Below are positions 9,687-11,388 of a stretch of 47,727 nucleotides of DNA, in pieces; position 1 is the stretch's first letter; the number at the start of each line of letters is the position of its first letter. A program made the position numbers and the translations under genes. Below the pieces are notes generated by a model. That model did no database searches and had not been told where the DNA came from. It saw only the letters and a list, made by a program, of their open reading frames with translations. Source of the DNA: Paracoccaceae bacterium (lineage in GTDB: Bacteria; Pseudomonadota; Alphaproteobacteria; Rhodobacterales; Rhodobacteraceae); assembly GCA_018223085.1 (NCBI GenBank), contig JAAEZB010000019.1, forward strand, positions 1 to 47,727. The letters run 5' to 3'.

Positions 9687-10895
9687 CTAAACAGACATGA
9701 TCAGGCGGTGTTTCAACATCGCCTGCATGATCTTCATAACCGCTTCTGTCAGATCTTTCACCGGCTGCTCCGGAAAGGCCGCAGCAAGCGTCTGCGTGAT
9801 CTCGCCATGCGTTGTCGGTTCTGCCAATAGCGTCCAGATCCCCGTCGTCACCCCGTTAAACGCATGCATCCCCGGCCCCTCGGCGCAGGCAACGAAAACG
9901 TCTTCCCCGTGTCGGACCTCGCAAACCGATGGGTTGCGTTGATAGGTCTGATCCCCCAGAGCCTCGGTATCTGTTGTCAGAACCGCGAGACTATCAGGTG
10001 GCAAGGTCGACGGATCAATCCGCGCCGCCGCGTCTCGCGGGTGCGCATCGCACCACGCCTTTAGGAACGCCGCAGCCTCCTCGCTATTGCTATATTGCAA
10101 CCGAAGACATTCCGCCGTCTCCACCAATCCGCTGAGCATCGCCAAAACCCGAGCCGGGTTCATGCTGCGTGAAAAGTTCTGATAAATCAGCCGCCGCATC
10201 ACCTCGGATGAGGTCACCGGCTCCAGCCGTGGAGCCCCTTCATCCGAGCGATCCAAGAGGATGATAGTCGAGACAGGTAGGTTCTCTCCATGAGGTGCCA
10301 ATTGCCCGGGTTGAAGACCCAAATACAGGTATTGCCGGTTCTGTGGCCCAGCATGATCTTCCATCCATCGTAATAGATCGGGAGAAAATTCCTTAGGTAG
10401 CGGCAAACGCAACCGCGGCGCCGCACCATTGGCAATACCGGTCAACGCCCCATCAGCGTCGAGCCGCAAAGGCAGGTAGTCATCCGTGAAAATGCGCGCG
10501 CCCTGTGCGGCAAGACAAGCCGTCAGCGTGCTTTTCCCGGCCCGCCGTTGATTTGGAAACAACATCAGGCTGCCATCACGCTCAATCGCAGCGCCATGGA
10601 AACACAACAACCCCGGTTCGTGCCTGATCCGCGACCACGCCAATTCCGCCAACAAGGTGCAAGCGGCGTGCAGAGGATCCGTGTGGGATTTACAAAGGTC
10701 GTAATGGTCCGAGGAAAACCAGTATTTTCCGTCTCTTCGCGATAGCACAAGAGATGGAACATCGGACCCATTTGTCACAGGTTGATAAGGCCAATCACTG
10801 AAAATCTCGGGAAGGCGTGCAATAACCTCACCGGCATCTTCAAAAACGACCGGGCCGTCGGTGCCGGAAAAATAGAAGCTTTGCGTCGCCACCAT
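9687..10895 (-). CDS. HprK-like kinase fused to a C-terminal PqqD-like domain
   Basis: The protein has 402 residues. Residues about 95-250 resemble the HPr kinase/phosphorylase fold seen in HprK-related proteins: HGAA at 100-103, a P-loop-like NQRRAGKST ending near 123, and a TDD motif at 137-139. The first Gly of the Walker A consensus is replaced by Asn. Residues about 316-402 resemble PqqD, the winged-helix peptide-binding domain (RiPP recognition element): VCEVRHGEDVF, FNGVTTGIWTLL and a predicted terminal helix. HprK homologues in some lasso-peptide clusters phosphorylate precursor serines. A substrate-like gene lies 82 bp upstream. I infer peptide phosphorylation guided by the PqqD domain. 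GC is visibly below neighbouring genes. Confidence 0.8.
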   Translation of the reverse strand: MVATQSFYFSGTDGPVVFEDAGEVIARLPEIFSDWPYQPVTNGSDVPSLVLSRRDGKYWFSSDHYDLCKSHTDPLHAACTLLAELAWSRIRHEPGLLCFHGAAIERDGSLMLFPNQRRAGKSTLTACLAAQGARIFTDDYLPLRLDADGALTGIANGAAPRLRLPLPKEFSPDLLRWMEDHAGPQNRQYLYLGLQPGQLAPHGENLPVSTIILLDRSDEGAPRLEPVTSSEVMRRLIYQNFSRSMNPARVLAMLSGLVETAECLRLQYSNSEEAAAFLKAWCDAHPRDAAARIDPSTLPPDSLAVLTTDTEALGDQTYQRNPSVCEVRHGEDVFVACAEGPGMHAFNGVTTGIWTLLAEPTTHGEITQTLAAAFPEQPVKDLTEAVMKIMQAMLKHRLIMSV

Positions 10896-10918
10896 TCCAA
10901 ATAGCCTCGGCTAAAAGA

Positions 10919-10952
10919 ATGCCCGGCACCAGAAACCTCTGAAGCCAGGCAT
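10919..10952 (-). terminator. Hairpin plus T-rich tail between the Gly-rich polypeptide gene and the kinase gene
   Basis: Read on the minus strand, ATGCCTGGC pairs with GCCGGGCAT (nine pairs, one G-U). Inside lies a second stem, CAGA/TCTG closed by a GGTT tetraloop, and the outer stem is followed by TCTTTTAG. This has the form of an intrinsic terminator 25 bp after the first gene and 23 bp before the second. Since the kinase gene has no obvious promoter of its own, partial read-through would give more polypeptide than kinase. Confidence 0.6.
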
Positions 10953-10977
10953 CATATTCTATTAGGTGAGCTGCAGG

Positions 10978-11388
10978 TTAGCGCTGATCCTGCGATGCGT
11001 CGCTCGCTCCGGACGCACCAGAGGCGCCATCATCAGACTCGCCGCCAGACGCTCCGGAAGCTCCGTCATCCGCACCGGATGCCCCATCATCAGAGCTACC
11101 ACCAGATGCACCAGACGCACCGCCGTCATCACCACCCGAAGCGCCACCACCGGAGCCACCGGAGCCGCCGCCATCGCCACCACCGGAACCACCGCCAGAG
11201 CCGCCACCATCGCCTCCGCCACCGTCACCGCCATCGCCACCTCCCGAACCACCGGACGCATGCGCCATGCTCAGGGTCGTAAAGGCCGGAGCGGTATAGA
11301 CCGCCGTTGCGCCCATACCAAGTTTGGCAAGAAACTTGCGGCGATCGATCGTCTCCGCAGACTGTTCTTCGTTAATGTTGTCGTCCAT
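10978..11388 (-). CDS. Tat-signal Gly/Ser/Asp-rich low-complexity polypeptide (putative kinase substrate)
   Basis: The 136-residue protein starts from an ATG seven bases after GAGGAG. Residues 1-15 are polar and acidic. RRKFLAKLG at 16-24 is a twin-arginine motif, followed by a mildly hydrophobic stretch and an AHA signal-peptidase-like site at 42-44. The remaining 92 residues are almost only Gly, Ser, Asp and Ala. They run from SGGGDGG-type repeats to repeated DDGASGASGG units and end in ASQDQR. There is no Cys. The codons fit an expressed frame with a strong ribosome site. It could be an exported adhesive or ion-binding protein, or a RiPP-like precursor modified by the downstream kinase-PqqD protein; the link is inferred from position. 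Confidence 0.8.
   Translation of the reverse strand: MDDNINEEQSAETIDRRKFLAKLGMGATAVYTAPAFTTLSMAHASGGSGGGDGGDGGGGDGGGSGGGSGGGDGGGSGGSGGGASGGDDGGASGASGGSSDDGASGADDGASGASGGESDDGASGASGASDASQDQR

Follow-up and report, generated by a model that had tools for sequence, protein, structure and literature searches.

A kinase fused to a PqqD-like domain and its serine-rich Tat-leader partner: a candidate leader-guided phosphorylation module in Rhodobacteraceae

What could a kinase of the HprK type be modifying when it is fused to a PqqD-like domain and encoded next to a serine-rich polypeptide with a twin-arginine (Tat) signal? This question is raised by two adjacent genes of a marine bacterium, and the same kinase-peptide pair was found in dozens of its relatives. 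We therefore compared the pair with known peptide kinases, with ordinary Tat leaders and with its counterparts in related genomes.

A kinase-PqqD fusion and a leader peptide encoded as a pair

The window, by which we mean the whole stretch of 47,727 nucleotides that was analysed (contig JAAEZB010000019.1), carries both genes on its minus strand with 82 bp between them, the peptide gene upstream and the kinase gene downstream; the initial annotation names the flanking genes trpS and ilvE. The kinase gene (9687..10895, minus strand) encodes a 402-aa protein in which an HprK/PEPCK-fold kinase domain (about residues 1-288; 10032..10895, minus strand) is joined to a PqqD (RRE) domain at the C-terminus (residues 318-402; 9690..9944, minus strand). 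The peptide gene (10978..11388, minus strand) encodes a polypeptide of 136 aa that is predicted to be exported, made up of a Tat-type leader (residues 1-44; 11257..11388, minus strand) and a Gly/Ser/Asp tail (residues 45-136; 10981..11256, minus strand), which we propose as the substrate of the kinase. The initial annotation had described a kinase with an HprK-like fold and a PqqD-like domain next to a Tat-signal Gly/Ser/Asp polypeptide, and this pair proved to be real.

In the window protein, the Pfam PqqD family (PF05402) was matched at residues 339-399 with 26.8 bits, against a curated cut-off of 23.4 bits, and a PqqD match at E<=0.01 was present in all 31 aligned kinase-PqqD fusions (set A1). 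The C-terminus of the window protein has the fold of leader-binding PqqD-like proteins and aligns to TbiB1-leader complexes, so the PqqD/RRE assignment of the initial annotation was upheld by profile as well as by fold comparison.

The pair was also kept together in relatives, so that neither of the two outcomes named in the initial annotation as refuting it (no co-occurrence, no PqqD fold) was obtained. Among 394 genomes sampled from the family, almost every one from a different genus, the kinase (E<=1e-10) was found in 31 and a strong leader in 30, with both in 29 (Fisher's exact on 29/1/2/362, 1.9e-40), a co-occurrence that is partly circular because peptides beside kinases served to train the leader model. 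A leader was called strong at E<=4.1e-9 with the leader-only profile (the next best match was 1.6e-6), and as at most 19 candidates per genome were scored, absences of the leader in this survey are not proof. In the 30th leader genome (G244) the peptide is directly followed by the beginning of a kinase, which is cut off by the end of the contig, and the two genomes with a kinase and no strong leader (G095 and G414) hold matches without the full fusion. In a scan of named genomes, from Shimia, Aliiroseovarius, Tabrizicola, Loktanella, Yoonia, Actibacterium, Ruegeria, Rhodobacter, Oceanibaculum and other genera, the kinase gene was preceded by a leader ORF in the same orientation at 63 of 65 loci. 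Thirteen of the 65 repeat, by contig and coordinates, loci used to build the leader model; the other 52 had the leader ORF in 50. One of the two misses has its kinase at a contig edge (L221), and at the other (L200) there is a partly masked ORF that has a serine repeat and a similar leader. All 31 aligned fusions had a leader ORF. The kinase and leader peptide form a conserved module, and the arrangement, a small precursor gene beside an RRE-bearing modifying enzyme, is that of RRE-dependent RiPPs.

Outside the family, 25 loci with an unfused kinase were collected, and in 20 of them the fetched stretch contains PqqD as an ORF of its own. A leader ORF was present in just 14 of the 25, which counts against a leader-guided explanation of the kinase; the tails were often rich in Ser, Arg and Pro. 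None was found within the fetched 1.5-kb flanks of the other 11, two of which start at a contig edge. At two unfused loci (L077, 1206-1415; L078, 1523-1759) the leader peptides have tails of about 20 residues with two Cys and are more like small RiPP precursors.

The spacer between the peptide and kinase genes can form an RNA hairpin (10919..10952, minus strand; dG -30.6 for the 82-nt spacer, z -2.3). This is a common feature, with z<-2 in 53 of 79 loci compared with 8 of 80 control stretches, and the hairpin may set a higher output of the peptide. No intrinsic terminator was called in the spacer by the terminator scanner. Upstream of the pair, a single promoter candidate with a 9-of-12 match (minus strand, 11534-11505) was rejected, as the region gave two matches where 1.1 were expected, which is not above chance.

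The leader motif and the kinase domain compared with known systems

The window leader contains the twin-arginine motif (in DRRKFLAKLG), a hydrophobic stretch and an AxA site, with the predicted cut between AHA and S, as in Tat substrates. In the hydrophobic part of this signal lies a motif resembling those recognised by RRE domains, Y31-x-x-P34-x-F36 (11281..11298, minus strand). The RR, Y, P and both Ala of AxA were invariant in 32 of 32 aligned leaders, and among leaders matching the leader model, to which the motif scoring was restricted, the pattern RR-x(8-16)-YxxPx[FLMVI] was present in 82 of 82 distinct primary leaders and in 43 of 43 other leader-bearing ORFs at these loci. All 22 class-level leaders, some of which repeat loci already counted, fit a looser version with [RK]R-x(8-18). 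None of the 20 distinct ordinary Tat leaders of relatives fits the pattern, in a small control for which 30 loci were taken, with six versions of one protein and two leaders (L245 and L250) that look like wrong frames. Two exceptions were seen outside these counts: L200 has Val at the Tyr position, and L257, an off-locus protein with a strong match to the leader model, has the motif without its Pro.

In lasso peptide systems, the Tyr, Pro and Leu of a leader YxxPxL motif have been reported to be required for recognition by the PqqD-like B1 protein (PMC10368454). Judged from the sequence, what is new here is that such a lasso-type, B1-read motif is located inside a Tat signal. The window motif has F at the Leu position and spans positions 14 to 9 ahead of the predicted cut, compared with 17 to 12 in lasso leaders. 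According to the available text of the same study, BsfB1 speeds up phosphorylation by BsfK, an HprK-like kinase; changing Tyr or Leu of the BsfA leader singly was without effect on phosphorylation, which counts against a leader-guided explanation, and the triple change did have an effect (PMC10368454). Phosphorylation of the leader instead of the tail was considered and is not favoured; Ser or Thr residues after YxxPx are common in the window's clade and less so in its sister clade (by eye).

The kinase domain carries H100, G120, K121, S122, T123, D138, D139, R161, R163 and R216. Its H/GKS/DD spacing is identical to that of BsfK (H at -20 and DD at +18/+19 from the P-loop Gly), and with the exception of a P-loop glycine, the catalytic residues agree with BsfK in identity and spacing. 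The P-loop segment NQRRAGKST (residues 115-123; 10527..10553, minus strand) departs from the canonical GxxxxGK[ST] in having Asn in place of the first Gly. In set A4, 57 kinases fetched with patterns favouring N/A at this position, the residue was N, S or A in all 57 and H/GKS/DD was intact in all 57; it was Gly in 12 of the 31 fusions of set A1. Changing the equivalent residue of BsfK, Gly163, reduced its activity (PMC10368454, available text), and the altered glycine counts against a leader-guided kinase. At one locus (L074, in G171) the kinase is apparently split over two frames and the peptide gene is intact.

Compared with HPr kinase/phosphorylase (HprK), the window protein shares the PEPCK/HprK fold, the conserved His, GKS and Asp-Asp, and differs in the altered P-loop, the extra RRE domain and the lack of a match to Pfam Hpr_kinase_C, which is matched by 2 of the 31 A1 members. 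The nearest NCBIfam model, HprK_rel_A (TIGR04352), also describes HprK-type kinases; membership was rejected at 55.4 bits against a cut-off of 200, and no HprK_rel_A match at E<=1e-20 was found in the window's own genome. PqqD-part matches lie beside 2 of 20 HprK_rel_A loci (L149 and L158). At two of the 20 (L145, 563-1099, and L146, 642-1166, both plus strand), upstream ORFs with an RR leader were seen by eye (leader-model E 1.8 and 16); unlike the window leader, these have no YxxP. The HprK_rel_A system may also act on exported proteins.

The closest likeness is with the lasso kinase systems of BsfK/BsfB1 and the paeninodin kinase. These share the HprK-type kinase, a PqqD-like leader binder, a leader with YxxPx-hydrophobic, and a kinase and precursor encoded together. 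However, B1 is a discrete protein in lasso systems, and in the window the kinase itself carries the RRE; the precursor begins with a twin-arginine signal as its leader, and the proposed substrate is a long Ser-rich tail instead of a threaded peptide. The window peptide ends in SQDQR and so lacks a C-terminal Ser acceptor, as does BsfA.

The serine-repeat tail and what the kinase might do

The predicted mature window tail (92 aa) contains 44 Gly, 19 Ser and 14 Asp, with a net charge of -14. Tails of relatives use different triplets, SAA, SEP, SRP, SGG and SGP, of which serine is the common member (by eye). Among the 82 primary tails, from which duplicate and masked-letter (X) sequences were removed, Ser pairs at lag 3 numbered 1054 compared with 491 in shuffles (z 39.1), the highest z of eight residues tested, and a 27-aa stretch with S/T at 8 or more of 9 third positions was present in 58 of the 82, compared with 8.7% of shuffles. 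The window tail is less regular, its best 27-aa stretch having 6 of 9, which counts against a leader-guided explanation. Both Ser codon families were used (TCN 889, AGY 810; at least three of each in 60 of 82 tails), a pattern that favours selection on the amino acid over simple expansion of a DNA repeat. Periodicity is also seen for Gly, Ala, Pro and Arg, and at lag 6 Pro exceeds Ser, so the repeat could instead be structural or glycosylated.

The charge of the tail follows the kinase. When the A1 fusions were divided by eye into two clades on the kinase tree, charge was zero or below in 18 of 18 tails of the window's clade and basic (above zero) in 12 of 12 of the sister clade (Mann-Whitney p 5e-6, a value that ignores shared descent). 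The comparison covers 30 of the 31 fusions, with the masked L053 dropped and the class-level L111, L113 and L114 left out. This agreement ties tail chemistry to kinase lineage, and the basic tails argue against calcium binding as a common purpose; the acidic, calcium-binding surface material suggested in the initial annotation is thus not supported as a general function.

In several subclades, the variable serine tail is followed by a C-terminal Cys-pair motif (for example at L177, L194, L205 and L214-L220; by eye), such as CSGPTDDDAGC, possibly forming a small knob.

Taken with the co-occurrence, the leader motif, the alignment of the PqqD domain to TbiB1-leader complexes, the BsfK spacing, the serine periodicity and the agreement between kinase clade and tail charge, we think it probable that the fusion is a leader-guided peptide kinase, in which the RRE would guide phosphorylation of serines at multiple sites before Tat export. 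That the kinase acts before export, as the initial annotation had suggested, gains support from the leader motif and the serine periodicity. Leader binding, phosphorylation, the number of sites, the order of events, location and purpose are what we infer from these comparisons. The PqqD/RRE domain would bind the YxxPx-hydrophobic motif in the hydrophobic part of the signal peptide, keeping the precursor in the cytoplasm and presenting its disordered tail to the HprK-type active site, where several serines, and threonines in some relatives, would be phosphorylated. After release, the Tat system would use the signal and signal peptidase would cut at AxA, just before the serine tail, leaving a phosphoserine-rich polypeptide in the periplasm or at the surface. 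In related species, other proteins with the same leader, such as PepSY-like proteins beside a two-component system and subtilases, could be co-substrates.

The number of sites is where a competing explanation is strongest. The HprK-type peptide kinases that have been characterised each modify a single residue, which is Ser3 for BsfK (PMC10368454, available text) and the C-terminal Ser for others, according to the part of a review that was available (PMC8498205), and the single-serine modification by BsfK counts against a multi-site reading. The kinase could thus mark one or a few serines, for example near the cut site or the C-terminus, with Ser-x-x being mainly a flexible or structural spacer, and the periodicity of Gly, Ala and Pro and the recurrence of short C-terminal Cys-pair motifs in subclades (by eye) are in keeping with this. 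We nevertheless regard it as unlikely, since by eye no single serine position is common to SEP, SRP, SGG and SAA tails, and serine has the strongest lag-3 signal. A further possibility is that the phosphate is an intermediate, and that tail serines are further decorated (phospho-sugar or nucleotidyl) by enzymes encoded elsewhere. Phosphoglycosylated lasso peptides, as outlined in the same review, use an HPr-kinase homologue with a nucleotidyltransferase (PMC8498205); at the present loci, no decorating gene was recognised among the neighbour families common to at least 7 of 80 loci, most of them unannotated, and we consider such decoration improbable.

Tat proofreading chaperones are cytosolic proteins that bind a Tat signal before export, and the position of the RRE motif within the hydrophobic region of the signal would suit a fusion that is mainly such a chaperone, although here an RRE within a kinase fusion would do the binding. 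The RRE would then shield the signal, with the kinase domain serving as an ATP-driven timer or modifying a target other than the tail, which would also accommodate a P-loop without its first glycine in the window's group. The agreement of kinase clade with tail charge, the serine periodicity and the catalytic residues retained throughout set A4 speak against this and make a chaperone role improbable. Least credible by far is that the genes are chance neighbours and that the kinase acts on HPr or some other target in the cytosol, as its HprK/PEPCK fold might suggest; the gene order is kept at 63 of the 65 loci, the leader-binding domain is fused in every A1 member, and the protein does not belong to HprK_rel_A.

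Neighbouring genes, genomic site and wider meaning

Among 80 loci compared, an OmpR-type response regulator was present in 33 and a histidine kinase family member in 34. These two-component genes usually follow a third ORF, whose product, as judged by eye, combines the same leader with a serine-rich linker and an end resembling PepSY; Pfam PepSY was tested on three such proteins and exceeded its cut-off of 24 in one (29.6), with 18.9 in another and no match in the third. At the sister-clade loci L063, L064, L065, L067 and L068, the peptide has a subtilase that carries the same leader in its vicinity, the L064 protein having a Pfam S8 match. The initial annotation had noted the absence of a protease gene, which holds for the window locus and does not extend to these related loci. 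No lasso cyclase (C) or B2 leader peptidase was recognised among the neighbour families common to at least 7 of the 80 loci, most of them unannotated. Sigma factors are nearby at L065 and, by eye, at L256.

The site between trpS and ilvE is occupied in a patchy manner. The kinase was found in 3 of 25 genomes of the genus, and in one of these (G005) it is on another contig than trpS. In five of the 25 (L260, L262, L264, L276 and L279) the trpS and ilvE-like matches are about 190-390 bp apart, too close for the pair to fit in; gaps of about 0.7 and 1.3 kb were seen in two more, and the others had no ilvE match within the fetched 1.5 kb. The window gap is 2153 bp. The GC3 of the pair is 0.53 and 0.62 against 0.76 for the neighbours, in line with the lower GC remarked on in the initial annotation. 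The patchy occupancy and low GC3 fit gain by transfer or repeated loss.

No published description of the kinase-peptide pair was found in the literature covered, in which preprints were absent and subscription papers few, and the word "kinase" is absent from the main text of the RRE-Finder paper in the form available (PMC7470986). The comparisons point to a so far undescribed mode of phosphate decoration that acts on a protein before it leaves the cell. Tentatively, and with somewhat less confidence than an even chance would allow, it may be proposed that the secretion signal doubles as a RiPP leader: an RRE-kinase would read the YxxPx-hydrophobic code buried in the Tat signal and make polyphosphoserine tails before export on a small set of clients (the repeat polypeptide, the PepSY-like protein and the subtilase). 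In many Rhodobacteraceae this would amount to a regulated system of envelope phosphoproteins, which in other Alphaproteobacteria would operate with the kinase and PqqD encoded by separate genes. If true, RiPP leader recognition would be linked to twin-arginine export, and HprK-type peptide phosphorylation would reach beyond small lasso peptides to repeat proteins that are exported. Clients could be found by sequence from the code RR...YxxPx-hydrophobic...AxA followed by a serine repeat, and the kinase with its recruiting tag would be a compact means of phosphorylating disordered chains.

Proteins with the same leader also occur away from the pair (L255, L256 and L257). In L257 (3980-5213), the leader protein, whose motif lacks Pro as noted above, has an (SSSGG)n tail and adjoins a signal-peptidase-like S26 protein.
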